Below are positions 1 through 18,316 of a stretch of DNA of 30,241 bases, one piece after another. The stretch spans positions 1 to 30,241 of the forward strand of contig JAFGDV010000006.1 in assembly GCA_016931955.1 (NCBI GenBank). The letters run 5' to 3'. Below the pieces are notes generated by a model. That model searched no databases, was not told the origin of the DNA, and saw only the letters and a program-made list of their open reading frames with translations. Numbering within the stretch: the stretch's first letter is position 1; the number at the start of each line of letters is the position of its first letter. The position numbers were made by a program, and so were the translations under genes. The stretch comes from Candidatus Altarchaeota archaeon (lineage in GTDB: Archaea; Altiarchaeota; Altiarchaeia; IMC4; QMZM01).

Positions 1-129
1 GACCCAGGACATGCCCCATGCCCCGGCCCAATATACGACGGATGCGTAAGAAACAGCGGCACAGGCTACCTAAACTGGGCATGCTGCCACAACATAATAT
101 GCAAAATACAAAAAGAAGTGCACATATGA
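1..129 (+). CDS. C-terminal tail of a Cys-rich protein, cut by the left edge
   Basis: Frame 1 is open from the first base to a TGA at 127-129 and encodes 42 residues. Five of them are cysteines (CPGPIYDGC, a WACC pair and IIC). The Cys-rich style matches the secreted proteins that follow, so this is probably the end of another secreted or surface protein of the same block. The next start codon (134) lies only 4 nt after the stop, which suggests co-transcription and possibly translational coupling with the pilin gene. No membrane segment is visible in this tail. The family is not recognised. Confidence 0.55.
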   Translation, partial: DPGHAPCPGPIYDGCVRNSGTGYLNWACCHNIICKIQKEVHI

Positions 130-133
130 TAGA

Positions 134-436
134 ATGAAAAAAGAGTCCCTCCTGTTCTTGGTGATTGCGTTCTCGCAGTTAGTTGCTGGAGCGGACATAA
201 TACCCTTCGGGTTGAAGGAGGCCTCGATAGAGGAATGGATCAACCTCTTCTATGCGATGACTGTCGCAGTCGCAGTATTGATGATGATATTCCACGGCAT
301 CAAATGGATCACAGCAGACAACGACGAAGACAGAAAACAGGCGAAGGCTGGAATCAAAAACGTCTTCTTGGGCTTGGTTTTTATACTTTTAGCTGCTGCA
401 TTGGTTGACATGGCATATACCAAGCCAAGCTACTAG
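134..436 (+). CDS. VirB2/TrbC-like small pilin, 100 residues
   Basis: This small secreted membrane protein has the layout of VirB2/TrbC pilins of type IV secretion systems. An N-terminal signal peptide has a likely cut after LVAGA (about residue 20). Two hydrophobic helices follow (about 38-53 and 74-92), joined by a short charged loop carrying KWITADNDEDRKQAKAG. The pattern G-x-[KR]-W-[IM]-x-[AS]-[DE]-[DN]-...-A-[KR]-x-G recurs in the membrane hairpins of the next three minus-strand genes, so all belong to one family. In known systems such subunits form the pilus, or with VirB6 the conduit. No clear Shine-Dalgarno precedes the start, and translation may be coupled to the gene ending at 129. 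Its stop shares a CTAG palindrome with the stop of the convergent gene. The fold class is fairly secure; the substrate is unknown. Confidence 0.8.
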   Translation: MKKESLLFLVIAFSQLVAGADIIPFGLKEASIEEWINLFYAMTVAVAVLMMIFHGIKWITADNDEDRKQAKAGIKNVFLGLVFILLAAALVDMAYTKPSY

Positions 437-987
437 ATGGGGCAGGAAACCTCTCCAACGTAGAGATAATTCACGAGAGCGAAGGAGATGATTACAAGAG
501 CCAAACCTACTAAGACATAATATACTCCCTTCTTTGCGTCATCCCGTCCCTGAAAGTCATCAGCAGTCATCCACTTGAGTCCGTTCACCATCAAGGAGAG
601 AACCGCCAACCCAGCCGCGATGGACTCAAGAATCAGGATGATCTCACAAAACTCCTTATTTGCGGCACAGTTTCCAGCGCAGGATTTTACACAGGCATCG
701 AACTCGTCTGAGCCAGATGTATACTTGCTGCATGTGCCAGCTGAGCAGCAGCTTTCACAGTCGCCTACGATGCAACCTGTCATGGAGCCGCATTCTGCCG
801 CGCATATTACTGGACAGTTGCCTCCAGAAGCTGTGTTGCACATGACCGTGGGCTCGCTTCCATCCTTGCAATTGTTGCCGTCACCTGCAGTGCATTTATA
901 TGATTCAAAGGTGGAATCAGCGTATCCAATCAATGTGATAGCTATTAGGATAATGAATGCTTTTCTTGCATTGGGTTTCATTTTCAC
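433..987 (-). CDS. Secreted Cys-rich protein with C-terminal VirB2-like hairpin, 184 residues
   Basis: A signal peptide (about residues 8-24) is followed by a Cys-rich region (about 30-112) with a DCESCC motif and an Asn-x-x-x-Cys segment just before the membrane. Two transmembrane helices then flank a loop reading NGLKWMTADDFQGRDDAKKG. That loop is near-identical in pattern to the small pilin at 134-436. The Cys-rich module recurs in the next two genes, so the three are paralogs. The C terminus ends with another Cys (EVSCPI). The longest start is GTG at 987; an in-frame ATG at 981 is equally plausible. It is third in a minus-strand run, 30 nt after its upstream neighbour, and converges on the small pilin. 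Likely role: a disulfide-stabilised pilin-like envelope subunit (inference). Confidence 0.75.
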   Translation of the reverse strand: MKMKPNARKAFIILIAITLIGYADSTFESYKCTAGDGNNCKDGSEPTVMCNTASGGNCPVICAAECGSMTGCIVGDCESCCSAGTCSKYTSGSDEFDACVKSCAGNCAANKEFCEIILILESIAAGLAVLSLMVNGLKWMTADDFQGRDDAKKGVYYVLVGLALVIISFALVNYLYVGEVSCPI

Positions 988-1017
988 TTAATTAATTTGT
1001 TTTGTTTGACTTAATAA

Positions 1018-2214
1018 TCAGCATGTGAACGACCCTGTAAAGAAGTAATTAGCTAATGATGCCGCTGTTATGATCAGTATCAAACCGACGAAGACGTATG
1101 CTATGCCCCTTTTCGCATCCTGTCGGCCCTCTATGTCATCAGACAGCATCCACTTCATGCCATGAAACATGATAAGCAAGATGGAAATGCCGGCAGCCAC
1201 TCCGTAGATGATGTAGAGGACGTTGCATAATTCCTCGTTGGCTCTGCAGACTCCCATGCAGTTTTCCATGCATACTTTTTTTTCTTCATTCCCGTAGGCG
1301 TACATTGAGACCTTATTACACCACAAGGGGCTATTGCAGCAGTTCTCACAGTCTGTACTGCATGTTGCCTCCCTGCCGCACTTAGAAGCGCATTGATACT
1401 TGCAGTCTACTGTGTTGCTGCATTTGACCTCAGGCTCCGCCCCATTTGAGCACTTGTAGTGCAACCCCATGCAGATGAAGTCGTCGTAAACGCAGGCTGC
1501 TGGAGGCCCCGCGTCGCATTTCATGGCGCATGCCTCCACAAGTGTGCACGAGCACTCTGCAGCTGATTCATCGTATTTGCATTCAACCAGGCAGGGCACG
1601 TTAGGATTGACTTGGATGCTGTCATCACACGTTAGACCCCCGTATGTCTGCCCGTACTCTAAACACGCTATGCCCTCGTATTCGCCGCAGCATCCTGGCG
1701 GAGTCACGAATAGGTGGGGATCGATACCTCCAAAGGGGCAAACATTTGTTGAATCTAGTGGGTCGTTAGAAAATCCAAGCTCGCATTCAAGGGATTCCAT
1801 TAGGGGGTTAGGGTTAGGTAAGGCGCCGATGATCGTGACTTTCGCCTCCCCTTTACCTGGGGGAGGGGGATTCTCGAGGCTGCACGCATCCCAGAGGCTC
1901 GGGACACTCGACAGCTTTATGGTTCCAGACTCGCCTGACTCAAGCCTCAACCAAAAGTCATTCGGCGAACGCTCCAATTCAAAATTATCCGCGTCGAATA
2001 GTACGGCTCTGTAGCAGCATTTCTCGGAACCTTCATTCGTAAACTTTACTGAGAATCTTATCTCATCCCCCCAATAGATTTCATGGGTTATCTCGACTTT
2101 GGTTTGGTCGATCTGGCATTTAGTTGGATCACAGCCTGCGTATGCGCTCTCAGCCAGAAAGATCGCCAAGAGGAGTACTGTAACCGCCTTGCTCAGGGAT
2201 TCCATCTTTAACAT
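1018..2214 (-). CDS. Secreted Ig-like plus Cys-rich protein with C-terminal VirB2-like hairpin, 398 residues
   Basis: This is the longest of the three minus-strand Cys-rich paralogs. The order is: signal peptide ending near SAYAG; a beta-rich Ig/CARDB-like domain (about 30-150); a linker rich in Cys and Pro; the shared Cys module (about 255-340, with YKCSNGAEPEVKC, DCENCC and C-MENC-MGVC); and the two-helix hairpin with HGMKWMLSDDIEGRQDAKRG. The protein ends in a Cys, as its sisters do. Its start overlaps the end of the upstream gene by 7 nt, and a second in-frame ATG lies three codons further on (2205). With both hairpin ends outside, the large N-terminal part would be extracellular. An adhesin-like or structural pilin role is inferred. 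Confidence 0.75.
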   Translation of the reverse strand: MLKMESLSKAVTVLLLAIFLAESAYAGCDPTKCQIDQTKVEITHEIYWGDEIRFSVKFTNEGSEKCCYRAVLFDADNFELERSPNDFWLRLESGESGTIKLSSVPSLWDACSLENPPPPGKGEAKVTIIGALPNPNPLMESLECELGFSNDPLDSTNVCPFGGIDPHLFVTPPGCCGEYEGIACLEYGQTYGGLTCDDSIQVNPNVPCLVECKYDESAAECSCTLVEACAMKCDAGPPAACVYDDFICMGLHYKCSNGAEPEVKCSNTVDCKYQCASKCGREATCSTDCENCCNSPLWCNKVSMYAYGNEEKKVCMENCMGVCRANEELCNVLYIIYGVAAGISILLIMFHGMKWMLSDDIEGRQDAKRGIAYVFVGLILIITAASLANYFFTGSFTC

Positions 2215-2906
2215 ATTATGGTGTGGAGGAATATTAGTTCTACCAGCGTTGACGCAACGACTATGAGGATAAAGCCAGCAAGCACGTATTCCACTCCCTT
2301 TCTCGCATCCCTCCTCGCCTCAAGGTCTTCGCTGGTGATCCACCTGAATCCATGCAGTATCAGCATTATTATGCCTGCGAACATTGCCCCGTAACGCAGT
2401 AAATCGATGACGTTGCAAAACTGCCTGTTTGACTCGCAGACGCCGTAACAGGTGTGATAACACGCCTCCTCCGTCTTACTGCCTGCAGCATATATGCTGC
2501 ATACATCGGTTGCAGTGCACTGCTCGCAGTTATCTGTTAGCAGCGTCTTCCGGCCGCAGGCTGCTGCACACTCAAGCATGCAATCAGAGGAATCCGGTTC
2601 ACTCACCAACTTGGCAACGGAACACCTCACAGACGGTGTGCTGCCGTCCTTGCACATGTAGCTGCCGAAAGTCGCATAGGTTGTGCACATAAAGGGCCCA
2701 AAAGTGCAGTAGGCCCCGCCTGTTGGTCCGGGATATATCTCGCATCCGACCGCACAGTATTCTAGTATGGTAGTATCTGTGTCATCGACGACACATGCAT
2801 TGCTGGGGCTGCCGAAACACGGATCGCGACATTTCGTAGCAGAGACTGCTGAGTTCATGGATATGAAGAGGATGAAAGCCGCTAATATCCATGATTTATC
2901 ATTCAT
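2208..2906 (-). CDS. Secreted Cys-rich protein with C-terminal VirB2-like hairpin, 232 residues
   Basis: This is the first gene of the minus-strand run. A signal peptide (cut near SAVSA) leads into two Cys-rich stretches. The second is the shared module, with YMCKDGSTPSVRC, NCEQC and the C-x3-C-x3-C spacing before the membrane. The C-terminal hairpin carries HGFRWITSEDLEARRDARKG, and the protein ends in Cys. A TATA-like element about 28 nt upstream of the ATG predicts an essentially leaderless transcript. Its stop overlaps the start of the 398-residue paralog, so the three genes are probably one operon. The exact function is unknown; a family link to VirB2-type pilins is inferred from the hairpin. 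Confidence 0.75.
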   Translation of the reverse strand: MNDKSWILAAFILFISMNSAVSATKCRDPCFGSPSNACVVDDTDTTILEYCAVGCEIYPGPTGGAYCTFGPFMCTTYATFGSYMCKDGSTPSVRCSVAKLVSEPDSSDCMLECAAACGRKTLLTDNCEQCTATDVCSIYAAGSKTEEACYHTCYGVCESNRQFCNVIDLLRYGAMFAGIIMLILHGFRWITSEDLEARRDARKGVEYVLAGFILIVVASTLVELIFLHTIIC

Positions 2907-2988: not shown

Positions 2989-5900
2989 ATGGTGAAAAAA
3001 TCCAGAGACCATAGGTTTATTCTCCTCATCTCTGTCATCCTCATACTGACAGTGCAAGCCAACTCCCAAAGCCCCCCCAGCTGTACTATGACATTGTCGG
3101 TAAGATTCGATCCTATTGATCCAGGCGAAGACAACGAGTTTAGTGTGCAATTAAATCCAGTCCCTGTATGCCGGGATAAGCCTGTGAGATTAGAGGTCAT
3201 CGATCCCAACGGGGTCAGACATCAATACTATGGAATCACCGACATTAGCGCCCGCATACCGCCGGCTGGTTACCTGAGTTACCTGAAGCAATTCGATAAC
3301 ATGCCTAACACGGATGTGAGCGGCAGATACTATGTGATCGCGACCCTATACACGGGTGACTGGGTTCAAGACGACTTCGCCGTTAACGTAATCTGCGATG
3401 AACAAGCGAAGGACGGTGGGGGCACATTGATAGCTGAACGCCAGATCACCATAGGCAGCATCCCAGAGACCGTGGCCTCAGATATCGTCGCATGCACCGA
3501 CCTGAATGCTAACTGTGGCTACCTTGACCTGGTCTTGGATAAGGACTGCGCTCAAACCGGCGGCAGCTTTCCAGGCGCAGATCTTAACGTAGGAACTACC
3601 GAGCCAAGCTCAACAGACCACATAACTATCTGCACTAAACCGCTCCCCTCCTCCGAGCTGGAGTACACCTCAATAGACGGCAACAAGTACACGCTCATCG
3701 GCATGGCTGCTGAAGACTCTGACTCGACCCATTACTGGATGGCTAAGACCGGAGACGATGAATGCATAATGGGGGACGTCACAAGATGCGAGTTGCTCAC
3801 TAAGAGGCTTTTCATAGACGAACCACTTTACAGGGACTACATAAGAGACACAGTAAACGGCTTGGCATATGTTAACCCCCCCTGTTCGGGCTTCTATGAG
3901 GCCGCAGTGGGCTGGCTGTATGACATCGACACCCCAAGGTACCACGACATCTTCGGGGATTTGACTGATTTCCTCTACTGCCATCAGTCCCCCTTGCCGT
4001 CATTTAAACTCATAAAAGAGTCGCAGTGGTGTCATCTGATAAACCTGGGATGGTATTCCGTCGTCAACCTGACCAACAAGGAGGGTGTCACAAACATCGT
4101 CAACGACAGCATAACAGCTGAGAACCGATGGAATAATCTCTCAGGCTACATCGTCTTAGGGCATGCATGCCCCATCTGGCGGGATGTTGATAATTTACCC
4201 GCAGGCCTCCAAACCTTTGACGCTACCGCTGGGGGTTACAATGTTCCATGCCAGCTTCCTGACAGCGAACCTTTTACGCCCCCGTGTTCGGCATCAATCC
4301 CCAACCAATGCATCTACGTGTGGACGTCCTCTTATGCGTGGGATGGATTGTTTGGGTACGAGAAAAGCTTTGATTACACGTTGACTAATGCGGCTGAGGT
4401 GGAGGTATTGATGGCTGACAGCAACACAGACACCCAGATCCCCGCCTTTGATGTGATAAAGGAGGAGGTGGAGTCTATAAGGTCGCGGGTGACGGTGACG
4501 CCTAATATGGTCGCATCAGACTGTGGCGCTGTAGCCCCCATAACTGATGTCTTTTATTATGATAATCCGCTCCTCCCAGGATACCGTTCCTGCGATGACC
4601 ACAAACTAGGTTACTATAGATTGTTCGACCAGGATACTGTGTGGACTAAGATCTTCGCCGTGACGCCGATGCTCGAAGACGAGCACTGGGCGTGGGACTG
4701 GGATTGGAGCAAGGCAAGCGGACCAGATGTTGACTCCACCATCTCAATATACATTGGAGGAGGCTGCAAGAGGACCAGCGCATTCTACTTCAACTATCCT
4801 GGAGCAAAATCTAAGTACTTCGACTCAGCCAGCGGCACCAATACGCCTATCGTAGACTACGTGGATGTCACAGTAGACGACGGAGTTAATCCACCAAAAA
4901 TCTACAGTCATGTACCTGGGAGGAATCTGCTGCCTTTCCCGCCTGCGGATGCTGTAGAAGATGAAATCACCGGGCTTCCCATACCGGCACGCACCCACCC
5001 ATATGAGGGCATAAGGTATTCCTTCTTCAAAATAGACCATGTTCTGCCGGAGGATGCCGCCTACCTCAAGATAGACGTGGAATACACGTGCGAGACTAAA
5101 CTGGAGCGGACTCAATCACCAGTCTGCGGAGGAGGCACTGAGACAATAGAGGACGAAAGCATCGTCTCAGACAGCTACACCATAAAGTTCCTCGACCACG
5201 ATAATCCAAGAGAGAACTGCAGATGGAACAATCCCCTGGAGTGGATGGTGATTGAAGGTACTTGGCAGGGAAGTTTAACACCTGAGCATCCCGGGAGGTT
5301 CTGGGACGCCGACCTCGAGAAGAACATATTCCACCTAGAGGAGGATTCTACTCAAAACAGGCGGATGGTCTCAGTGGAAGAGGTAGAGGAAGAAGGCAAG
5401 ATAATAGAGGCGTTGGTCAGGGGCGAGGCTTCAGGTGATCAAGCTGATATGATGGTTGGATTCTACAGCGACGCTGCCGCAAATAACTATTGGTACGTTG
5501 ACATAGCCCGAGACGGCGGTGTAGGCGGTCAGAGCATAGTAATAGGCAGATATGAAGCGCCGTCGAGCTGGCAAGATAAGGAGTATGAAATTTCCCCTGT
5601 TCAGCCCCCGGATGAGGAGAAATGGTATTGGGTCAAGGTCTTCCTTGACGGGGATGACATATATGCGAAGGCTTGGCTCTGCGATCCCCCGGATCCCTGG
5701 GAGTGCAGTAAAGATGAGCCAGCAGGCTGGATGATACAATACGAGATGCAGGCAGGTGACACTAAGTATGGCCACCACTGGGTTATCGGTACCGACATAG
5801 GGGATACTGGCGATGAGGAATTCTGGTTTGACACCGAACCCATGTGCGGGATAGACATCAGCGGCTACTTTACGCCACATGATACACCCTTAGGTTACGC

Positions 5901-7164
5901 AGTCATCACCGACGGATTCATAGACATAAATATTAAGCCGGACACCCTCAGCGGATTCAACGTCAGCTTTAGAAACACAAGCATCATATACGAGCAGACC
6001 GCGTATCCCGCTAAACACATACTGTACAAGAAGGGAAAACCAGAAATACCTCCTGAATATCCTGACATCTTTGAGTTCTACTACGAAGACAAATACGGCT
6101 ATGAGTCGGAAATATATGGTTTCAATGAATTATGCAATCTGCCTCCCTGCCCAGCGAATTGCCACTGTGAGGAGAACGACATATTCAAACCGGAATGCGA
6201 TAACGTCGACCGAACAAAGGGTTCATGGCATTACTACCCCGACGGCTGCATATGCGCCCCCAGCGAATGCTATCCTGACCCGTGCAGCTCCGACAGGACA
6301 TACCACGAATTTGAGGGCTTATACTATGACTTCGTTGACTTCAATGCAATGCGTCTTTCAAAGGAGGAGGAATACCTTCAGACGGTGATGGACGCCGACG
6401 TGGCGGATGGTGAGACCGCCTTTTGGATAGAGGGGAGAGATCTGAAGGCTGAACTGGATGTTGGAAAGATAAACTCCGCTGAGGGCAGATATCGGCTCTA
6501 TTTCTCTGGCACAAACGTCAAAGTAACGGACTTTAAAGACGACGCTCAGATCATAGTATCCACGCACTTCAGGAACTACACATACAAGCTCAAGGATGTT
6601 TTAAGGCCGAGGGGCAAGGCAGTCATCGCCTATACAGTGACTCCTCCTAAGGAGTTCATAAAAACAGGTGACATCGTCACCATAGATCTGGACCTAATAT
6701 GCGGCGCAACAACCATAAGCAACGCAGAAGTCGAAGTAATCATCCCAAACTATGAGGGCGAGCTTTTCGGCGTTAGATGGGAGAAGCCCAGGATCGAGTT
6801 AGAGGATATTGAGTTGGATTTCTGGGCTGGACCTGTTTTCATGCCCACCATTAAACCCGACTTCAGGGTTACAGGGGATAGATCCTATGTGACGACCGAC
6901 GGTACGGGACACGCAAGCTTCGGCCTTATGATGAAGCAGAAGGCTGCACATGTAATACTCTACTACGAAGGCGGTGATTTATGCAGTGAAGCCGAGGCCA
7001 GCTTCATCTTAGGGAGAGAGGACTTGTCATCCATAATAACGAGTGTTGACTTCATCCTATTGCTGATCATATTCATCCTCCTCATATTCTCGTACAGGTG
7101 GTTTAAGAGGGGCAGACTGGACTTCTATGAGATGTGGCAGGAGTTCAGAGGGGAGAAGGACTAG
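2989..7164 (+). CDS. Large secreted multidomain protein with C-terminal membrane anchor, 1391 residues
   Basis: The protein starts with a basic, hydrophobic signal peptide (about residues 1-27) and ends with a single transmembrane helix (about 1350-1370) followed by a short charged cytoplasmic tail, so nearly all of it is outside. Visible parts are an Ig-like N-terminal domain (about 30-145) resembling that of the 398-residue neighbour, and a long stretch with scattered cysteines. A concanavalin/LamG-like beta region follows (about 743-965, starting NNPLEWMVIEGTW). Next comes a Cys-rich segment (about 1045-1105, NLPPCPANCHC) and a final Ig/macroglobulin-like region (about 1200-1335, with TTDGTGHA). 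No catalytic motif is recognised. It diverges from the Cys-rich pilin operon and is probably a surface or adhesin component of the same apparatus. Domain names are tentative. Confidence 0.7.
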   Translation: MVKKSRDHRFILLISVILILTVQANSQSPPSCTMTLSVRFDPIDPGEDNEFSVQLNPVPVCRDKPVRLEVIDPNGVRHQYYGITDISARIPPAGYLSYLKQFDNMPNTDVSGRYYVIATLYTGDWVQDDFAVNVICDEQAKDGGGTLIAERQITIGSIPETVASDIVACTDLNANCGYLDLVLDKDCAQTGGSFPGADLNVGTTEPSSTDHITICTKPLPSSELEYTSIDGNKYTLIGMAAEDSDSTHYWMAKTGDDECIMGDVTRCELLTKRLFIDEPLYRDYIRDTVNGLAYVNPPCSGFYEAAVGWLYDIDTPRYHDIFGDLTDFLYCHQSPLPSFKLIKESQWCHLINLGWYSVVNLTNKEGVTNIVNDSITAENRWNNLSGYIVLGHACPIWRDVDNLPAGLQTFDATAGGYNVPCQLPDSEPFTPPCSASIPNQCIYVWTSSYAWDGLFGYEKSFDYTLTNAAEVEVLMADSNTDTQIPAFDVIKEEVESIRSRVTVTPNMVASDCGAVAPITDVFYYDNPLLPGYRSCDDHKLGYYRLFDQDTVWTKIFAVTPMLEDEHWAWDWDWSKASGPDVDSTISIYIGGGCKRTSAFYFNYPGAKSKYFDSASGTNTPIVDYVDVTVDDGVNPPKIYSHVPGRNLLPFPPADAVEDEITGLPIPARTHPYEGIRYSFFKIDHVLPEDAAYLKIDVEYTCETKLERTQSPVCGGGTETIEDESIVSDSYTIKFLDHDNPRENCRWNNPLEWMVIEGTWQGSLTPEHPGRFWDADLEKNIFHLEEDSTQNRRMVSVEEVEEEGKIIEALVRGEASGDQADMMVGFYSDAAANNYWYVDIARDGGVGGQSIVIGRYEAPSSWQDKEYEISPVQPPDEEKWYWVKVFLDGDDIYAKAWLCDPPDPWECSKDEPAGWMIQYEMQAGDTKYGHHWVIGTDIGDTGDEEFWFDTEPMCGIDISGYFTPHDTPLGYAVITDGFIDINIKPDTLSGFNVSFRNTSIIYEQTAYPAKHILYKKGKPEIPPEYPDIFEFYYEDKYGYESEIYGFNELCNLPPCPANCHCEENDIFKPECDNVDRTKGSWHYYPDGCICAPSECYPDPCSSDRTYHEFEGLYYDFVDFNAMRLSKEEEYLQTVMDADVADGETAFWIEGRDLKAELDVGKINSAEGRYRLYFSGTNVKVTDFKDDAQIIVSTHFRNYTYKLKDVLRPRGKAVIAYTVTPPKEFIKTGDIVTIDLDLICGATTISNAEVEVIIPNYEGELFGVRWEKPRIELEDIELDFWAGPVFMPTIKPDFRVTGDRSYVTTDGTGHASFGLMMKQKAAHVILYYEGGDLCSEAEASFILGREDLSSIITSVDFILLLIIFILLIFSYRWFKRGRLDFYEMWQEFRGEKD

Positions 7165-8189
7165 ATCTTAAGTAGAATCCTTATGAACGTGATTAAATCG
7201 CCTTGGCAGAGATAGGTCAACAGAACCCCGAAGAAGAGGAATGGGGCGAACGGCAGCGTCTGCTGTATTCTCACGTGATCGGATTCTAGTTTTTTTTCTT
7301 TGTATAGTCTATTGATTAGATCGATTTCTTTTTGCGTTACACCCCTCCCAAGATTTATGATAACCTTATTTTCTGACTTTATGTCTTCTGCCAACATCAT
7401 GCAGGGCTTCAGCTCATCTATTCGTATGGATGTCGTCGTTTTGATCAATCTGCTTAGGCTTATGAGAAACATAACGACCATGAAAACAAAAATCAGGGAG
7501 GCAAAGAACCTCAGAAAATCCATGGTGAGAACCGTATCATAGTCAAATAAAAGCCTCAGCACAGAAAACAGTATGGATGCCTGCGTCAAGGTGATGAATT
7601 TTGTCTTCCTGAATGCCTCAGGTATGGCCATGAACAGGAGCAGGTATGTTAAGAATGTTAGCTGCATTCCCATAAACGAGAACAGTCCGTCGAAGAACCA
7701 TAGGAATCCGAAAAGGAACAGTATCCTACCAGCTAACGTCTTCAGATCGAATACCTTCCTAGGCTGAATCTTTTCTTTGATGGAGAACGGGAGGGTTAGG
7801 AGTAATAAAAAGAAGAGTGGGATGAATGTGTTGCCGAGGATTGTGAATGATGGGAAGTATTCTACGTAGCCTAACCGGTATGTAGTTAATGGGATTAATG
7901 CCGCATATGCTGAGAATAGTTTCGCATCCCCTGCAGTCCACATTTTGAACGTCCACAATGAGTAACTGACTAGAAACGCTATAATCACGTTGATCAATAA
8001 CGCAGGGTAGTAGTCTTGGCTTAGACTATGGTTTTCGATGAAACCAGAGAACATCAGGGAATTCATAAGGACGGCGAAGATAAACGCTAAAAGGATGTAT
8101 TTGTTCCTTATCTTCCCGCAGCGGATGTCTTCGTAGGATGTTATAGAACCAAAGACCAAGATGAATGGAAAAAATATGTTTGAGACCAT
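7161..8189 (-). CDS. A24-family prepilin peptidase (archaeal type)
   Basis: This polytopic membrane aspartyl protease cleaves class III (prepilin/preflagellin) signal peptides on the cytoplasmic side of the membrane. The first catalytic Asp is D21 in TSYEDIRCGKIRNK. The second is D88 in MWTAGDAKLF, the equivalent of the GxGD motif but with Thr in the first position. The 342 residues are longer than minimal FlaK/PibD enzymes. The extra part holds more membrane helices and a soluble segment with DELKPCMMLAEDI, followed by a C-terminal PFAPFLFFG helix, a layout seen in many archaeal A24 enzymes. It converges with the 1391-residue gene, sharing the CTAG at 7161-7164. No class III substrate is obvious in the window; VirB2-type pilins normally use ordinary signal peptidases. 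Confidence 0.8.
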   Translation of the reverse strand: MVSNIFFPFILVFGSITSYEDIRCGKIRNKYILLAFIFAVLMNSLMFSGFIENHSLSQDYYPALLINVIIAFLVSYSLWTFKMWTAGDAKLFSAYAALIPLTTYRLGYVEYFPSFTILGNTFIPLFFLLLLTLPFSIKEKIQPRKVFDLKTLAGRILFLFGFLWFFDGLFSFMGMQLTFLTYLLLFMAIPEAFRKTKFITLTQASILFSVLRLLFDYDTVLTMDFLRFFASLIFVFMVVMFLISLSRLIKTTTSIRIDELKPCMMLAEDIKSENKVIINLGRGVTQKEIDLINRLYKEKKLESDHVRIQQTLPFAPFLFFGVLLTYLCQGDLITFIRILLKI

Positions 8190-8253: not shown

Positions 8254-8688
8254 ATGTCGAAGAAAAGGCTTAAATCTGCTGTAGACAATATGGAGGTTTT
8301 TGACGCTGAAAACTATCTCATCTTATCCGTCAACCCAAGGATCTATAGCCTTGATGTCGTCTATTATGCCGCCTACGTCTTATTGGATAGGGCGTATGTC
8401 ATACTTGGAGGAGACCCGAAGAAAAAGATCCTGGTAGAATTGAGACCGAAGGATAACACAGACCTGAAAAGCTTGGGCAGGGAATTCAACAACGAGTTGT
8501 TGAATTACGCAGTGTACCTGAAACAATCAGCGAAAAATCAAAAGCTGAAGGAGGCTATCCTACAGAGGGTTTTGATGACCAATCTCGCTCCTGTGGAAGG
8601 CTGTGAACCGAATGAACTACTAGGGGATCCTGGAGGAATCACCAAACCCTGGGGGAGAGAGCATGGCAGGAAAAAGAAAAAAGGTTAG
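8254..8688 (+). CDS. HxsD-like protein, first copy
   Basis: This soluble protein of 144 residues matches the pattern of HxsD, a small protein of His-Xaa-Ser peptide-modification systems whose exact role is not established. The recognisable parts are a beta-helix start (YSLDVVYYAAYVLLDRAYV), the strand ILVELRPKD, then DLKSLGREFNNELLNYAV and a closing helix with KEAILQRVL. It is longer than its partner because of a Gly/Pro- and Lys-rich C-terminal tail. It is the first gene of the peptide locus. The 64-nt gap to the divergent peptidase gene is AT-rich but has no unambiguous TATA box. Its last 26 nt overlap the second HxsD-like gene. The assignment is by motif memory, supported strongly by the adjacent HxsB-like gene. 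Confidence 0.7.
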   Translation: MSKKRLKSAVDNMEVFDAENYLILSVNPRIYSLDVVYYAAYVLLDRAYVILGGDPKKKILVELRPKDNTDLKSLGREFNNELLNYAVYLKQSAKNQKLKEAILQRVLMTNLAPVEGCEPNELLGDPGGITKPWGREHGRKKKKG

Positions 8689-8926
8689 TGTGGATGAGAG
8701 AAAAAATCGAGTAGTGGCTGTTTTCGATACCCGATTTTATACCCCCGAAAGCATAAAATCGTCTGCTGAAGACTTCGAGGACTGTTGTCGTCTTCAAATT
8801 AGGTCCTGGAAAGATGATATAACTGTGGTATTGTCTCCTAAGAGCAGAGACATCAACTTAGACTTCCTCGGATATGAGTTCTATAATTATGTCCTTGCCA
8901 GGATGAGATCAAAAATGCCTGGTTAA
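8663..8926 (+). CDS. HxsD-like protein, second copy
   Basis: This 87-residue paralog of the preceding protein keeps the same order of elements: VVAVFDTRFYTPESIKSSA, a strand with DITVVLSPKS, and DINLDFLGYEFYNYVLARM. It stops where the longer copy continues into its last helix. The ATG is supported by the purine-rich GGGGGAGAG at 8651-8659 (spacing about 3-4 nt). It overlaps the upstream gene by 26 nt and ends 6 nt before the radical SAM start, so the three are one transcript. Two HxsD-like subunits may form a heteromer that helps the maturase recognise its substrate (inference). Confidence 0.68.
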   Translation: MAGKRKKVSVDERKNRVVAVFDTRFYTPESIKSSAEDFEDCCRLQIRSWKDDITVVLSPKSRDINLDFLGYEFYNYVLARMRSKMPG

Positions 8927-8932
8927 TTTAAG

Positions 8933-10357
8933 ATGACTTTCAGCTACTTGGACACAGAAAAGTGTGTTGACTACACAGAAAACCAATACTTCGTGGAGAG
9001 CTTAGGGCAAGACACTTTTTTGATAACTACGGAACATGGTGCCTGGGTTGTTTTAAATAGGGAGCAATACAAACTGCTTAGATTGAACCGATTACATGAG
9101 GATTCAGGCCTTTTCCAGGAATTAGAGAGAAAGGGGGTGATCGTCACCAAAAGGAATGTAGACAATATAATAAACCTTTACAGGCTAAGAAGAGACTTCC
9201 TCTTTATGGGAGTGAATCTGCACATAATAGCTGTGACGTCAAAATGCAATCATAGATGTATTTATTGTTTCACTGGGTCACGGAAAAACAGAGGGGATAT
9301 GGATGGAGACACTGCAAAGGATGTGGTGGATTTCATATTCCAGAGCCCAAACCCTGCAATAAATATAGAGATCTCGGGAGGTGAGCCGTTGATGAATTTC
9401 GACGTTGTTAGATTTATCATAGAATATTCTGAAAAATTGAATAAAAAGTGCGGAAAGAATCTGAGCTTCTCTGTCGCCACAAACCTGAGCCGGATGGATG
9501 AGGACATCTTAGAGTATTTGATGGATAAAAAAGTGTCTATATCCACTTCCTTGGATGGACCAAAGAGAGTGCATGACAAAAACAGGAAGTATCTAGGAGG
9601 TAGCAGTAGCTACGAAGAAACGGTTTATTGGATTGACGTCATCAAAAGGGATCACCAGTATCCTCTCATAGGCGCACTGCCTGTGATCACAAGATATTCA
9701 TTAGCCCATGGGGGGGAGATAGTCGACGAATACGTCAAACATGACCTTGGTTGTTTAAGGCTTAAATACATCTGTCCTACAGGTGACGCACAGAAGAGGT
9801 GGGACAGGATAGGATACACATCTGAGGAGTACCTTGTTCTATGGAAGAATGTTTTGGAGTACATCCTTGAGCTGAATTTTAGCGGCATAGAATTCAACGA
9901 AGGATTGACGACTCTTGCATTGAAAAAGATTTTATGGACGCGGGATCCGAACTATGTTGACCTGAGTATGCCCTGTGGTGCTGGAATAAGACAGATCGCA
10001 TACGACGAGGGGGGTAACATATACACCTGTGATGAAGCAAGACCTTATGACATATTTAGGCTGGGCAATGTGGGTAGAGACGGATACATGGAAACAACAA
10101 CTTCGAGGATCGTTGCCAGTATTGTCGGCATATCCTCTGGCTACCCCCTCATCTGTGATTTCTGTGTTTGGAAACCATACTGTGGAGTCTGCTGTGTCAT
10201 ATCATACGCGCAACAAGGGAATATAATACCAAAGCTGCCTCTTGATTTCAGATGCAGGATACATAAGGGGATATTCGAGTATGTATTCAAAAAGCTGCTT
10301 TCATCGCCTGAGTGGAGAAAGATTTTTATGAAGTGGGTTAATATACCAATGTTCTAG
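8933..10357 (+). CDS. HxsB-like radical SAM/SPASM peptide maturase
   Basis: This predicted cytoplasmic radical SAM enzyme uses an Fe4S4 cluster and S-adenosylmethionine to modify a ribosomal peptide. An N-terminal region of about 80 residues resembles the PqqD-like peptide-recognition part of HxsB. The radical SAM motif CNHRCIYC holds C105, C109 and C112. SISGGEP-type and ISTSLDGP motifs follow. The SPASM region has PCGAG (C348), IYTCDEA (C366), the PYCGVCC cluster (about 410-418) and FRCRIHKG near the end; these would bind auxiliary clusters. The length (474) and the C-terminal pattern fit HxsB (His-Xaa-Ser system maturase). No HxsC is present in the window. The likely substrate is the peptide encoded immediately downstream. 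Confidence 0.85.
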   Translation: MTFSYLDTEKCVDYTENQYFVESLGQDTFLITTEHGAWVVLNREQYKLLRLNRLHEDSGLFQELERKGVIVTKRNVDNIINLYRLRRDFLFMGVNLHIIAVTSKCNHRCIYCFTGSRKNRGDMDGDTAKDVVDFIFQSPNPAINIEISGGEPLMNFDVVRFIIEYSEKLNKKCGKNLSFSVATNLSRMDEDILEYLMDKKVSISTSLDGPKRVHDKNRKYLGGSSSYEETVYWIDVIKRDHQYPLIGALPVITRYSLAHGGEIVDEYVKHDLGCLRLKYICPTGDAQKRWDRIGYTSEEYLVLWKNVLEYILELNFSGIEFNEGLTTLALKKILWTRDPNYVDLSMPCGAGIRQIAYDEGGNIYTCDEARPYDIFRLGNVGRDGYMETTTSRIVASIVGISSGYPLICDFCVWKPYCGVCCVISYAQQGNIIPKLPLDFRCRIHKGIFEYVFKKLLSSPEWRKIFMKWVNIPMF

Positions 10358-10360
10358 ATT

Positions 10361-10379
10361 TACATATATGTTTTTATGT
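10361..10379 (+). promoter_or_regulatory. TATA-like promoter of the precursor gene
   Basis: The 39-nt gap after the maturase contains ACATATATGTTTTTATG, with the TATA centre about 29 nt before the ATG at 10397. This spacing predicts a leaderless start. It would let the candidate precursor be made at a higher level than the enzymes upstream, which is common for peptide-modification loci. Confidence 0.5.
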
Positions 10380-10396
10380 CAGTAACCCAATAACTT

Positions 10397-10762
10397 ATGA
10401 GTATGAAAAAGAGACTTCCAAGGATAAGGAAGGAATTATGTTCGTTTCTGTCTGAAGAAGACGGCAGGATACCGAAGAAGTCGATGCTTGCAATCGGTTC
10501 TACTATGGGTGGCATAGCTTTGGCCGGATTATTCTCTGATGTGATACCGTCTGCTGAGGCAACATGCCCCTCAGAAACAGTATTCACTTGTTGGCATAAT
10601 AATACCATTAACGCAGCCTATGATTCAACAATGTGTGCAATAACAGCCACCCACAATCTCCACGCGAATTTCAGCGTGGGTCCTGGGGAACATGGAACCA
10701 GCGGTTGCCGGCACGACAACAGTTGCCCACCGCCAAATGATGGATTGGATCCCTGCCTATGA
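10397..10762 (+). CDS. Candidate modified-peptide precursor, 121 residues
   Basis: The N-terminal half (about 1-55) looks like a leader. It has a basic start, an acidic FLSEEDGRIPKKS segment, then a small-residue hydrophobic helix (MLAIGSTMGGIALAGLF) and a possible cut after PSAEA (about residue 55). The C-terminal 66 residues are a likely core, rich in Cys (57, 65, 80, 104, 110, 120), Asn, Thr and His. The core has five His, three in His-Xaa-Asn (HNN at 67, HAN at 89, HDN at 106), plus HNL at 86 and HGT at 99. Bacterial Hxs substrates carry His-Xaa-Ser instead. Position directly after the HxsB-like maturase and behind its own promoter supports the role. It could instead be a small secreted Cys-rich protein unrelated to the enzyme. 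Confidence 0.65.
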   Translation: MSMKKRLPRIRKELCSFLSEEDGRIPKKSMLAIGSTMGGIALAGLFSDVIPSAEATCPSETVFTCWHNNTINAAYDSTMCAITATHNLHANFSVGPGEHGTSGCRHDNSCPPPNDGLDPCL

Positions 10763-13687: not shown

Positions 13688-14956
13688 CTAGGTCGTTTTT
13701 TGGATACACAGATCCATCAGACAGAGTGTGTGATTGTCTCCGCATCTTATGCAGTATCTCTCCAAAACCAGAAAGGCCTTGAATTTTTTTAGGTCTATAT
13801 TGCTCAATAAATCCGCGTGAAGTTCAAGACGATTCTTTTTCCTGCAGAAGTATATCTTTTCGGGGGGAAGACCTTTCTTTTTGAGTATCCTTATCAACTC
13901 CTTGATCTTTTCGAGTGATTCTGTGACCACTATCTTTTTTATGCATCCGTTTTCTGTGACTTCTTCATGAGGCTTTCTTATGATTTCGGTCATATTTTTG
14001 ATGATCATAGCTCCTTGAACATGTTTTTTATAGTAACTTGGGCAAAAATTGATTGGTAACTCTATGTTCTTCTCTATTGTAGAATCTATTATCCTCAAAG
14101 CGGCCAGTTCGCTGCCATAAACTGGCATTATGTCGCTCATGAAATCATTTTCTGAGGAACCAATTAGAACCTTATAGCCTCTACTGCTCATGTCCCTCAG
14201 ATTATTCTTGCTAAACGTCAACTCGTGAAGATTCAGGTATTTTACACCGATTTTTTTCAACTCTGGCAGCAGTTTTTTTACTTTTTCTTCATCTTCGGGG
14301 ATTGCTGGTATCTCCACTGACACAACATCAACGCTTTTCACGGCATTTTTTAGCGGCTTTGTGTCGTATTCTCTTGCTGCTAGATCAAACCTGAGCTCAT
14401 CTAAGCCGCTATCCCTGAGTGCATTCAGCGTTTTTTTAGAGGCCAAGTCGCCGTTGGTGTAAAGCCAGATGTAGAAATCCTCAGACATATTATCCTTCAT
14501 TGCTGAGATGAAATCAAGAGCTCTGTCGAGTACACATAAGGGTTCACCGCCGGATATTCCAACACCCTCTATATTCCATCTCTTCAGGAAAGAGATCAGT
14601 TGACTTGGATTATGAAAGATGCTGTAATCGCATTTCACGTAATCTTTTTCTGGTTTGTTCCTTGGTTGGGGACAATAGAAGCAATGCCTTGTGCATTTTT
14701 CTGTTATGAAGATGCAAATCCATTTACCTCTTTTACATAATCTGCAGCCCTTGGATAGGTCGCCGTAGAATAGACTGTTTCCTTCTTGGGTTGCCTTGAG
14801 TCCTCTGGAGATCAAGCCATCTATAAGCTGCCGTCTTTCAGAGCGATACACATCGATCTCTGCCTTTGAGGGCCTCCCTATTCGTCGGTAAAGCTTCTTG
14901 TTCTCATTCTTTATCTCACGTATTTTTTCGGGATTTGGATAATACCATCCTTGCAT
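13688..14956 (-). CDS. Radical SAM protein, COG2108/PflA-related, with extra Cys clusters
   Basis: The core radical SAM motif is CTRHCFYC (C88, C92, C95), with a GISGGEP motif downstream. Ahead of it sits an unusual cluster, GCRLC (C71, C74) and WIC (C81), typical of the uncharacterised archaeal group related to pyruvate formate-lyase activating enzyme. The C terminus has another Cys set (C402, C405, C412, C417) that could bind an auxiliary Fe-S cluster or zinc. In between, an alpha/beta barrel and a second small alpha/beta domain (about 320-395) are visible. The length is 422 residues. The ATG at 14956 faces the importer operon across a 61-nt divergent gap. The reaction and substrate are unknown. 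It is not close to HxsC by motif, so it should not be assumed to serve the peptide locus. Confidence 0.72.
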   Translation of the reverse strand: MQGWYYPNPEKIREIKNENKKLYRRIGRPSKAEIDVYRSERRQLIDGLISRGLKATQEGNSLFYGDLSKGCRLCKRGKWICIFITEKCTRHCFYCPQPRNKPEKDYVKCDYSIFHNPSQLISFLKRWNIEGVGISGGEPLCVLDRALDFISAMKDNMSEDFYIWLYTNGDLASKKTLNALRDSGLDELRFDLAAREYDTKPLKNAVKSVDVVSVEIPAIPEDEEKVKKLLPELKKIGVKYLNLHELTFSKNNLRDMSSRGYKVLIGSSENDFMSDIMPVYGSELAALRIIDSTIEKNIELPINFCPSYYKKHVQGAMIIKNMTEIIRKPHEEVTENGCIKKIVVTESLEKIKELIRILKKKGLPPEKIYFCRKKNRLELHADLLSNIDLKKFKAFLVLERYCIRCGDNHTLCLMDLCIQKTT

Positions 14957-15011: not shown

Positions 15012-15017
15012 TTGATT

Positions 15018-16040
15018 ATGGTGTATGTCAAGAGATTGTTGATTTTATTATTGTTGTTCTCTCTTTTGATGCCTGCCTGCATCGACTCAGGTGGGAAATC
15101 CGATGAAGTTGTTGTCTATGTCGCACATGATCAGGATTATTCTGAGCCCATACTCAGGGCTTTTGAAGAGGAAACTGGCATCAGGGTGAAAACTCTCTAC
15201 GATACTGAAGCTACTAAGACCACGGGCCTGGTGAACAAGCTGATAGCGGAAAAGAACCGTCCTCAGGCTGACGTCTTCTGGAACAACGAAGTCAGCAGGA
15301 CTATTGTCTTGAAGAATAACGGTATCCTGGAAACCTATTGTTCGCCTAACGCAGCCGATGTGCCAGCTATATACAAGGACCCTGAATGTTACTGGACTGG
15401 TTTCGGAGCTAGGGCGCGGATCATACTCTACAACTTGGATCTTGTAAGCAGAGAGGATGCACCCGATTCCTTGATGGATTTAACAGATCCCAAATGGGAG
15501 GGCAAGACGTGTATTGCAAACCCTCTTTTCGGTTCTACTGCATCGCATGTGGCTTCTCTATTCGCCTACTGGGGTGACGACGAAGCCATCCAATACTTCA
15601 CTGGCCTTAAGGAGAATAACATCATGATTGTGGAAAGCAACGGCATGGTCAGGGATCTTGTTGTTTCCGGTGAATGCTACATCGGCTTGACTGACACTGA
15701 TGACGCAAACGATGCCTTGGTCGAGAATAAACCTGTTGCGATGGTGTTCCCAGATCAGGACGGCATGGGTACTCTGGTTTTCCCCAATTCAGTGATGTTG
15801 ATCAAGAATGGGCCGAATCCAGAGAACGGTAAAAAACTCGTCGATTACCTGTTGAGCAGGGATGTCGAGAGAGAGCTTGCTTATACGAAGGCGATGCAGA
15901 TACCCCTTAAACCTGGAGTGGAGCGTCCGGAGAATGTTCCTGACGTGGATGAATTGAAGAATATTCCTGTGACGCCGGAGGAGCTCTATAATAAACTTAA
16001 CGTCTCTCAGGTTTTTGTTCAGGAGCTTTTTATCAGATAA
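15018..16040 (+). CDS. Fbp-type ABC importer substrate-binding lipoprotein
   Basis: This periplasmic-binding-protein-like receptor feeds the permease and ATPase that follow. The signal sequence is short and ends in a lipobox-like MPAC (Cys near residue 20), so the protein is probably lipid-anchored outside the membrane. The body has the ferric-binding family pattern: VVVYVAHDQDYSEPIL, then AFEEETGI, PQADVFWNNE, and a C-terminal LVDYLLS. At the position where FbpA has two adjacent iron-binding tyrosines this protein reads GLTDTDDAND, so the usual Tyr ligands are missing. The substrate may still be iron, bound through other residues or a chelate, or may be something else. It is separated from the permease by 18 nt in a clear operon. 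Confidence 0.8.
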   Translation: MVYVKRLLILLLLFSLLMPACIDSGGKSDEVVVYVAHDQDYSEPILRAFEEETGIRVKTLYDTEATKTTGLVNKLIAEKNRPQADVFWNNEVSRTIVLKNNGILETYCSPNAADVPAIYKDPECYWTGFGARARIILYNLDLVSREDAPDSLMDLTDPKWEGKTCIANPLFGSTASHVASLFAYWGDDEAIQYFTGLKENNIMIVESNGMVRDLVVSGECYIGLTDTDDANDALVENKPVAMVFPDQDGMGTLVFPNSVMLIKNGPNPENGKKLVDYLLSRDVERELAYTKAMQIPLKPGVERPENVPDVDELKNIPVTPEELYNKLNVSQVFVQELFIR

Positions 16041-16058
16041 TCCCAATTCTTATGGAAG

Positions 16059-17606
16059 ATGTCTTTGAGGTTTCATGCAGATTTAAGGCTATTATTAAAA
16101 ATCTTAACGCTTTTTCTATTCATCGTAGTTGCCATAGTTCCACTACTTTGCATCCTCTCATCGGATTTCTCATTGGAGCTTATTCCCACGTTTCTTGATG
16201 AGAGGTTGCTGTTTATCTTCCTCAGAACAATCCTCTTAGGTGTCAGTACAGTAGCTATGAGTCTTCTGATAGGAGTACCACTCGCATTTCTCTTGGAGTA
16301 TACAGTGCTACCATTCAGATCCTTCCTGGAAAAGGTCTACATACTGCCTCTATTGATACCCCCGTATATAAGCGCGATAGCTTGGTTGGAATTCCTGGGA
16401 AAGAAGGGGGATATCACGAATCTGAATCTTCCATTGGACATATACAATCTACCCTCAGCCATAGTTATTTTATCTCTTTCATTCTTTCCGATCGTGACTT
16501 TGTTGACGTCATTCGCACTCAAGAACATTGATTCCAGACTGGAGGATGCTGCAAGGCTCTTGTATCCTCAAAAGGAGGTCATAAGGAGGATAACCCTTCC
16601 ATTGATTATGCCTCACATCATCATCAGCTCAGTCTTCGTTTTCGTTTTTTCCATCTCCGAGCTCGGCGTTCCCGCATTATTGATGGTTAATGTTTTCACC
16701 CCCGAGATATTCGCACAGTTCAGCGCCTTTTTTGATACCAGCAAGGCTGTTACACTCTCCCTGCCTCTCATCATCTTGATATTCATTATCATCCTACTGA
16801 ACAGATCATTCCTTGGAGGGAAGTCCTTCATAACCATCTCCTCCTTTTCTAAGAGAAAGAAATCGATTGAATTATCAAGGACCCAGAGTTTGGTTGCTTT
16901 GTCCTTCGCATCTCTCATCCTGGTACTATCCGTTGGGATACCGATCTCGGTTCTACTTATAGAATCCAGATTGCAGTTCTCAATAGCTCTCTCTGAAGCC
17001 TACACACCTCTCCTAAACACCATAAAAATGGCTTCGATGGGCGCTACCTTGATGGTCGCCATAGGCTTCTTTCTCGCGTATTTTTACAGAAGCCGATTTG
17101 ATCCAATAATCCTATTCCCCATAGCAATCCCGAGCATGATGGCGGGCATCGGGCTCATCAAATTCTTCAACATCGAATTTCTTTCTTTTATCTACAACAG
17201 CTTTCTCATAGTCATAGTAGGGTACGCAACAAGATTCCTCCCATTCGTCACGAAAACACTCCATCCCTTCTTTGAGCAGATACATCCCTCGATCGAGGAA
17301 TCGGCGCTCCTATCAGGCGCCTCCTTCTGGAGGATTCTCCATCGGATCCTGTTCCCTTTGATGAAGCCTGGAATCATTTCGGCGTGGATTGTCGGCTTTA
17401 TACTGTCGGTACATGAACTTTCTACGACGATACTGGTTTCCCCTGCAGGGCTCCAGACCCTGCCAATCAGGATATACTCTCTGATGCACTATGGAGCTCC
17501 CGAGATGGTCTCATCCCTCTCATTGATATTGATTGCTGTGATAATTGCCCCCGTGATACTATTCCTCCTAATCAAGAAGTCATTATTCAGGGCGGTGACG
17601 GCATGA
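16059..17606 (+). CDS. Fbp-type ABC importer permease with two fused membrane domains
   Basis: About 12 transmembrane helices lie in two homologous halves, as in FbpB/ThiP-type permeases, where one chain forms the whole channel. Each half has an EAA loop that docks the ATPase. The first starts at about residue 158 (LEDAARLLYPQKEVIRRITL, lacking the usual Gly). The second starts at about 413 (EESALLSGASFWRILHRILF, with the Gly). The length of 515 is usual for the family. The end overlaps the ATPase start by 4 nt (ATGA), so translation is coupled. The substrate is set by the binding protein and is presumed to be iron or a related ligand. Confidence 0.88.
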   Translation: MSLRFHADLRLLLKILTLFLFIVVAIVPLLCILSSDFSLELIPTFLDERLLFIFLRTILLGVSTVAMSLLIGVPLAFLLEYTVLPFRSFLEKVYILPLLIPPYISAIAWLEFLGKKGDITNLNLPLDIYNLPSAIVILSLSFFPIVTLLTSFALKNIDSRLEDAARLLYPQKEVIRRITLPLIMPHIIISSVFVFVFSISELGVPALLMVNVFTPEIFAQFSAFFDTSKAVTLSLPLIILIFIIILLNRSFLGGKSFITISSFSKRKKSIELSRTQSLVALSFASLILVLSVGIPISVLLIESRLQFSIALSEAYTPLLNTIKMASMGATLMVAIGFFLAYFYRSRFDPIILFPIAIPSMMAGIGLIKFFNIEFLSFIYNSFLIVIVGYATRFLPFVTKTLHPFFEQIHPSIEESALLSGASFWRILHRILFPLMKPGIISAWIVGFILSVHELSTTILVSPAGLQTLPIRIYSLMHYGAPEMVSSLSLILIAVIIAPVILFLLIKKSLFRAVTA

Positions 17607-18316
17607 CTTTCCTCAGAATAAGAAACGTTGAGAAATCATTCGGCAGAAAGAAGGCGATATCAGAGCTCTCATTGGAGGTAGAGCAAAATGAGATCATCGG
17701 AGTACTCGGACCCTCAGGCTGCGGGAAGACGACTCTTCTCAGGATTATCGCAGGCCTTGAAGTACCCGACAGAGGAGAGATAATCATCAACGGAAGCACA
17801 GTTTACTCCAAGCGTACATTCATAACGCCTGAGAAGAGGAATGTTGGCATGGTGTTCCAGGATTTTGCGTTGTGGCCGCATATGACTGTGAGAGAGCATA
17901 TAGGCTTTGTGTTAGAGTCGCGAAAGATTAAAAAAGATGAAAAAATCAGTGAAATACTGAGGTTATTGTATCTTGGATCACTGGCTGGGTCTTATCCTGA
18001 ACAGCTTTCTGGTGGAGAGAAGCAGAGGGTCGCGATAGCGAGGGTTCTGGCTCAGGAGCCCAGGATCCTGTTATTGGATGAACCTGCGTCTAACCTTGAC
18101 CAGATCCTCAAGAGAGAGTTCAAGGATGAGCTGCTTAGGCTGAGGGAAGTTCTTAAGGTGACAGTAGTCTATGTCACCCACAACTACCTTGAACTGCTTG
18201 GTCTAGCTGACAAGATCACTGTAATGAAAGACGGCAGAATAATCCAAGAGGGTAAAACAGACGAAGTCTACGAAAATCCTGGAAATGGGTTCGTAGCCAG
18301 CCTCTTCAATAAATAG
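17603..18316 (+). CDS. ABC importer ATPase
   Basis: This cytoplasmic ATPase drives the fused permease. All core motifs are intact: Walker A GPSGCGKT (36-43), Q-loop Q86 in VFQDF, signature LSGGE (135-139), Walker B ILLLDE (155-160) and H-loop H193 in VTHN. At 237 residues it lacks the C-terminal regulatory (TOBE-like) domain found in longer FbpC/PotA proteins. It is the last gene of the three-gene importer operon. Confidence 0.92.
   Translation: MTFLRIRNVEKSFGRKKAISELSLEVEQNEIIGVLGPSGCGKTTLLRIIAGLEVPDRGEIIINGSTVYSKRTFITPEKRNVGMVFQDFALWPHMTVREHIGFVLESRKIKKDEKISEILRLLYLGSLAGSYPEQLSGGEKQRVAIARVLAQEPRILLLDEPASNLDQILKREFKDELLRLREVLKVTVVYVTHNYLELLGLADKITVMKDGRIIQEGKTDEVYENPGNGFVASLFNK

Follow-up and report, generated by a model that had tools for sequence, protein, structure and literature searches.

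Can a VirB2-type pilin carry a large cysteine-rich domain and still serve as a pilin? The question is raised by four adjacent genes (positions 134 to 2906) in a 30,241-nucleotide stretch of DNA from Candidatus Altarchaeota archaeon, hereafter the window, which is a complete contig (C36) of a 1.55-Mb Altiarchaeota genome in 46 contigs. An earlier note made from these letters alone described one bare pilin hairpin and three hairpins fused to Cys-rich ectodomains, and proposed an undescribed class of disulfide-rich archaeal pilins or minor pilins. Our analysis suggests that the genes encode pilins of a chromosomal, VirD4-less type IV secretion system (T4SS) of Altiarchaeota. The bare protein would be the main subunit and the Cys-fused proteins minor subunits, with hairpins closed by disulfides and with multi-hairpin polypilins inserted as a joined stretch. 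We hold this reading to be probable, if only modestly so.

All four open reading frames are present, and their products share the hairpin and its loop, which reads GIKWITAD, GLKWMTAD, GMKWMLSD or GFRWITSE and fits the motif G-x-[KR]-W-[IM]-x-[AS]-[DE] in four of four proteins. The first gene encodes, as the note had recognized, a bare pilin. It alone has the canonical VirB2 form (about 100 residues, one hairpin, no ectodomain), the other proteins being fusions of 184 to 398 residues. Each fusion begins with a signal-peptide-like helix of its own, and Cys-rich secreted domains do precede the hairpins. However, the lengths that the note had given to these ectodomains (184, 398 and 232 residues) are those of the whole proteins; after the signal peptide, the domains span about 90, 300 and 140 residues, respectively. 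The proposed Cys module is real, since P-x-V-x-C, C-x-x-C and C-x3-C-x3-C elements occur in all three fusions, and a further Cys lies at or near each C terminus (residue 182 of 184, 398 of 398 and 232 of 232). Across the Cys module and hairpin the fusions are 36–41% identical in pairs and have 12 invariant Cys, which argues for homology (paralogues) rather than chance. A fifth fused hairpin lies elsewhere in the window (residues 738–791 of a 1173-residue protein) and a sixth in a 182-residue protein on contig C9.

Profile searches of the kind that the note had called for place all four hairpins with the T4SS_pilin and VirB2 families (PF18895, 6.5e-14 to 1.5e-5). Three of the proteins score 52.2, 42.3 and 29.8 bits against PF18895 (cut-off 26.6); the 184-residue protein scores 25.4 bits as a protein and 27.8 bits in a six-frame search. 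The TrbC/VirB2 model (PF04956) recognizes the 398-residue protein (28.8 bits, cut-off 27.9) and gives 17.8–20.6 bits for the other three. In NCBIfam, all four score highest with the Mbov_0395 pilin-like conjugal transfer family, without reaching its cut-off. A profile search for solved-structure relatives of the hairpin returned chance or designed proteins only, and Foldseek and VIA-align comparisons of its model returned generic two-helix matches (Z up to 7.1) that are uninformative. The solved pilins CedA1 and TedC gave neither a PDB sequence match nor a Foldseek match, a result of little weight for a bare two-helix hairpin. An archaeal type IV pilin, prompted by the A24 prepilin peptidase gene beside the block, was considered and rejected: the four proteins have no type IV pilin Pfam domain, and their conserved hairpin is C-terminal and made of two helices.

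The C-terminal hairpin also appears in both proteins modeled with AlphaFold2, from shallow alignments. It is confidently predicted in the 184-residue protein (helices 93–141 and 145–177) and in the 398-residue protein (helices 309–357 and 361–391), the latter having a beta-rich N-terminal region, and pLDDT peaks over the hairpin core of both models (about 80–93). Helix 1 of the 184-residue model extends outward past the membrane and bears a C-x3-C-x3-C-x6-C series (C99, C103, C107 and C114).

Most of the hairpins are bracketed by cysteines. A hairpin counted as bracketed if it had one Cys where helix 1 begins or shortly ahead of it, and a second no more than 30 residues beyond the end of helix 2. 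Both are present in 106 of 160 distinct hairpins outside the VirB6-like proteins and neither in 19. Polypilin units have both in 57 of 61 cases (the remaining four have long linkers), and VirB6 hairpins in 0 of 29. The Fisher value for the Cys pattern (5e-7) is descriptive only, because the sequences are related. Cys seldom occur within the hairpin helices, and the window's bare pilin has neither bracket Cys and no Cys at all. In the three fusions and their three orthologues in a related genome, G015, the last Cys follows the one that opens helix 1 by exactly 68 residues. Furthermore, the Cys totals of the window fusions are even (16, 34 and 20), and the G015 orthologues have the same counts once one apparent signal-peptide Cys is omitted in two of them. 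The simplest reading of the bracket pair is a predicted disulfide staple, which would close the outer end of the hairpin as cyclization does in TrhA, the cyclic pilin of the H pilus. There, too, a covalent bond closes the outward-facing hairpin ends, but it is a peptide bond (PMC13031515).

The earlier note caught only one corner of this family, which is phylum-wide and includes tandem polypilins of up to ten hairpins. We surveyed 394 genomes with PF18895, scoring at most 14 candidates per genome so that the counts are lower bounds, and obtained matches in at least 23 of the 29 Altiarchaeota genomes versus at least 13 of the 365 other archaeal genomes. Among the matches listed, non-Altiarchaeota reading frames have 101–166 residues and many Altiarchaeota frames have 180–1170. 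The loci read in f1, the family of the window, hold 14 bare pilins, 52 single-hairpin fusions with the extra domain N-terminal, C-terminal or on both sides, 11 proteins with at least two hairpins, and 25 VirB6-like proteins; those read in family f4 hold 18 bare pilins and 3 fusions. These categories were assigned mechanically, and contig ends truncate some of the proteins. Ten polypilins from six Altiarchaeota genomes carry 4–10 hairpins per open frame, joined by linkers of roughly 25–60 residues, and the helix pairs in their hydropathy profiles agree with the hairpin counts. Five hairpins recur, although G009, G010 and G011 belong to one genus and G007 and G008 to another, which leaves few independent lineages behind the recurrence. 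Five is not a strict rule: there are also polypilins of 2, 4 and 7 hairpins, and four VirB6 genes were seen on the stretch read in G013, the window's congener. Hairpins are also found inside very large proteins, and hairpin proteins resembling the window's 1173-residue protein lie upstream of the VirB6 genes in G013 and G015.

The genes around the block are those of a secretion machine. The four-gene order recurs in G015 with 1:1 orthologues (that of the bare pilin is L045:10493-10795), and positions are kept between genera. In G015, PrgI-like and VirB4-like genes are followed by five more genes (one Cys-rich with a hairpin), the bare pilin, the three Cys-fused pilins, a large secreted protein and the A24 peptidase; a 283-residue Cys-rich protein is directly upstream of the bare pilin, as in the window. 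A neighborhood survey such as the note had suggested identified VirB3-, VirB4- and VirB6-type genes near the block in relatives and VirB6-like genes in the window, and conserved blocks of VirB6-, PrgI/VirB3- and VirB4-like genes are found. The PrgI of relatives scores 35.5 bits against PF12666 (cut-off 27). VirB4 is found in 20 of the 29 Altiarchaeota species genomes, with best full-length matches 62–83% identical, and a VirB4 scan of named genomes returned 18 loci, nearly all labeled Altiarchaeales or Altiarchaeota and the rest Euryarchaeota or unclassified archaeon. The best NCBIfam match of the G015 VirB4 is the Gram-positive CD1110 family (318.4 bits, cut-off 325), with a mycoplasma integrative and conjugative element family also near; the CedB-type model gives 61 bits against a cut-off of 700, far below the Gram-positive-type models. 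By these scores, the ATPase is closer to Gram-positive and mycoplasma systems than to Ced/Ted, for which the CedB model was compared.

A mobile or conjugative element was considered and rejected: there was no plasmid match for the 398-residue protein, no viral contig encoding the polypilin, no Relaxase PF03432 and no clear VirD4. The search for VirD4 (PF02534) returned only short matches to the Walker region. The match in this genome falls on a HerA-type DUF87 reading frame, and PF03432, the sole MOB family searched, is absent from the 29 Altiarchaeota genomes. The genes thus point to a domesticated chromosomal T4SS.

VirB6-like proteins are a second part of the expansion. The homology of VirB2 and VirB6 has been described, the N-terminal hairpin of VirB6 being related to the pilin (PMC9905601), and pilin-type hairpins were recovered in the three VirB6-like proteins of the window. 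Relatives often encode five such genes together (G016:C38, G015:C1, G017:C14, G018:C52, G009:C38, G010:C18, one cluster in G006 and three separate ones in G014); the stretch read in G013 has four, and in family f4 the genes are fewer and longer. The VirB6 of the R388 and Dot/Icm systems is pentameric (PMC12857230). Rickettsia also array five divergent extended VirB6 paralogues (rvhB6a–e) in one T4SS, a bacterial system for which the sections of the source consulted report neither fused nor concatenated pilins (PMC2653234). Together, the quintets, the Rickettsia paralogues and the known pentamers make a VirB6 hetero-pentamer built from five paralogues a natural hypothesis. Two further proteins accompany these clusters. 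A similar-looking membrane protein of 174–198 residues, without a Pfam match in the L062 copy, follows the quintet in several genomes (L062:13416-13982, L058:6987-7556, L163:8754-9350, L076:7142-7666 and L160:3026-3550). Beside many VirB6 clusters lie secreted Cys-rich proteins of very large size, which may be tip proteins or adhesins (L156:3-6431, L160:9575-13999, L155:2-4258, L166:8353-12534 and L062:4709-7852).

The fused proteins are most likely minor or structural pilins decorating the T4SS pilus, judging from these gene sequences. In the mechanism that we propose, the proteins would enter the membrane by the Sec pathway with both ends outside and the basic loop (G-x-[KR]-W) in the cytoplasm. 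VirB6 and VirB4 would then draw the hairpins into a hollow pilus whose lumen is lined by the loops. The bare pilin would supply the main subunit. The Cys-fused pilins would be built in as minor subunits, their disulfide-rich domains coating the outside or tip of the pilus and touching partner cells. Through polypilins, several subunits would be inserted as one covalent stretch, either in the five-start pilus wall or at its base. Five-start protofilaments are common to known VirB2-type pili of archaea and bacteria (PMC9905601), and polypilin subunits linked on the outside are compatible with them. A bolder proposal is a new T4SS appendage with disulfide-stapled hairpins, joined blocks (often of 5 or 10) matching a five-fold architecture, a base of five different VirB6 proteins and a surface of fused Cys-rich domains; we advance it tentatively, as a possibility on the doubtful side.

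Several observations weigh against pilins of this kind. Sequence and fold searches of the PDB found no solved pilus chain, and the Cys domains of the 184- and 398-residue proteins were modeled at low confidence. The bracket is incomplete in 28 of the 160 hairpins with a downstream Cys only and in 7 with an upstream Cys only, at the 30-residue cut-off. Neither VKOR nor a Thioredoxin_4 oxidase (a VKOR/DsbA-like partner) was found in this genome. The search of this assembly yielded neither VirB4 nor PrgI. Their G015 counterparts lie about 7 kb upstream of the block, and the reading frame truncated at the start of the window corresponds to the end of the Cys-rich protein encoded just ahead of the G015 bare pilin, which would put VirB4 a few kb past the contig end. 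As for the class that the note had proposed, the match to pilin families stands, and the literature searched gave no equivalent; pilus entry, disulfides and function are what we infer from the genes of these archaea.

The strongest competitor, which we nonetheless judge rather unlikely, is that the hairpin serves only as an anchor for membrane or VirB6 docking. The Cys-rich proteins would then be receptors or adhesins at the T4SS mouth that never enter the filament, and the polypilins a membrane ring. That VirB6-like membrane proteins contain the same hairpin is consistent with this, and hairpin proteins of 1173 (window), 1139 (L051) and 844 (L056) residues are awkward as pilus subunits. A ring would also suit the VirB6 pentamer, the several polypilins with 5 or 10 hairpins and the frequent occurrence of VirB6 genes in fives. 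Yet the window hairpins match pilin families and not VirB6 families, and bare pilins are co-encoded, as a pilus would require. In known VirB2-type pili the pilin ends face outward, which makes decoration possible. It is improbable that the Cys-rich domains are instead metal-binding or redox modules that the hairpin brings to the surface, rather than disulfide-stapled adhesins. Putative metal-binding motifs of the MopE type in the 1173-residue protein, and the search of this genome that found neither VKOR nor Thioredoxin_4, would favor such modules, but the three fusions of the four-gene block have no MopE match, and their conserved even Cys numbers and fixed 68-residue spacing fit pairing better than metal sites. 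Very improbable are T4SS substrates or effectors with a borrowed hairpin as export signal: the attached domains are highly diverse across species (PKD, MopE, Cys-rich repeats), but each protein opens with a signal-peptide-like helix of its own, none has a recognized catalytic or toxin domain, and the 1:1 orthologues hold their position between genera.

The pilins proposed here share with VirB2/TrbC and T4SS_pilin systems (T-pilus, F-pilus and the archaeal CedA1 and TedC; PMC9905601) the two-helix hairpin, short basic loop, signal peptide and partners of the VirB4, VirB3 and VirB6 types. Canonical VirB2 pilins are single units without ectodomains, whereas Altiarchaeota have ectodomains of several hundred residues, up to 10 hairpins per chain and mostly Cys-bracketed hairpins. 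The closest precedent is in Patescibacteria (PMC12102498). The sections of that study consulted describe T4SSs with VirB4 and PrgI of the Gram-positive (MPF_FATA) type, VirB2-like pilins detected by PF18895, many divergent pilin paralogues and mostly no relaxase; the VirB2 genes form arrays of 2–11 separate genes, and those sections mention neither Cys-rich fusions nor concatenated pilins. Neither a T4SS of Altiarchaeota nor a VirB2 pilin that is concatenated or fused to a Cys-rich domain was described in the literature searched.

The features discussed are collected in Table 1. The window also contains an archaeal His-Xaa-Ser-type locus (8254–10762) for a ribosomally synthesized and post-translationally modified peptide, with HxsD (47.3 bits, cut-off 50), an HxsD-like protein over its cut-off, the radical S-adenosylmethionine (SAM) protein HxsB (394.9 bits, cut-off 370) and a 121-residue Cys-containing peptide with weak HxsA3 likeness. 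A second radical SAM protein (13688–14956, minus strand) matches HxsC weakly (45 versus 268 bits). An ATP-binding cassette transporter (binding protein, permease and ATPase; 15012–18316) also lies beside the VirB6 cluster of G013, and its ATPase recurs beside that of G015.

Table 1. Coordinates of the pilin block, its neighbors in the window, and the VirB6-like arrays and polypilins of relatives (aa, amino acids).
Feature	Location	Strand	Description
Cys-rich secreted protein, C-terminal end	1-130	+	Cut by contig end; 67% identity over 42 aa to end of G015 283-aa Cys-rich protein
Bare VirB2/T4SS_pilin-type pilin	134-436	+	100 aa; signal peptide and hairpin; 0 Cys; PF18895 6.5e-14
184-aa pilin fusion	433-987	-	Short Cys module (16 Cys), C-terminal hairpin; PF18895 1.5e-5; AlphaFold2 hairpin
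398-aa pilin fusion	1018-2214	-	Beta-rich N-terminal region, Cys modules (34 Cys), C-terminal hairpin; PF18895 8.1e-11, PF04956 1.4e-6; AlphaFold2 model
232-aa pilin fusion	2208-2906	-	Cys module (20 Cys) and hairpin; PF18895 6.4e-7
1391-aa secreted membrane-anchored protein	2989-7164	+	36 Cys; 48% identity, full length, to L045:13333-17340; adjoins block in both
A24 prepilin peptidase	7161-8189	-	Adjoins pilin block, in G015 too, though pilins are not type IV
1173-aa protein	18369-21890	+	88 Cys; MopE-type repeats (PF11617), T4SS_pilin hairpin 738-791 (PF18895 2e-8), PKD (PF00801)
VirB6-like polytopic protein (347 aa)	21986-23029	+	Pilin-homologous hairpin at residues 89-142
Extended VirB6-like protein (2015 aa)	23073-29120	+	Hairpin found by iterated pilin profile
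VirB6-like protein (344 aa)	29117-30151	+	Hairpin found by iterated pilin profile; contig end just beyond
Five-gene VirB6-like arrays	L062:8032-13324, L058:3-5140, L153:4656-13949, L154:6987-12919
Five-gene VirB6-like arrays	L155:5747-11485, L159:5690-14277, L160:3594-9574, L163:3345-8717
Polypilins, G018	L046:8007-15371		7, 4 and 7 hairpins
Polypilins, G009	L047:4172-9247		5 and 10 hairpins
Polypilins, G010	L048:1899-6999		10 and 5 hairpins
Polypilin, G007	L049:1047-3233		5 hairpins
Polypilin, G008	L050:1687-3387		5 hairpins
Polypilin, G011	L060:7650-9692		5 hairpins

VirB2-type pilins, known as tiny unadorned hairpins, here carry large, predicted exposed domains throughout a lineage and form concatemers in some species. 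The Cys-rich fusions and the chains of up to ten hairpins suggest an armored, partly pre-joined type of secretion pilus that is absent from the literature searched. If such chains enter the filament, a pilus wall could be built from joined, surface-decorated subunits, which would offer protein engineers a natural scaffold, and the chains of 5 and 10 hairpins and the VirB6 quintets, set against VirB6 pentamers, would provide a handle on symmetry. The cell–cell interactions of Altiarchaeota are poorly understood, and the findings also point to a T4SS that is widespread in this phylum and apparently chromosomal, with the combination of VirB4, PrgI and VirB2 that the consulted sections describe for Patescibacteria.

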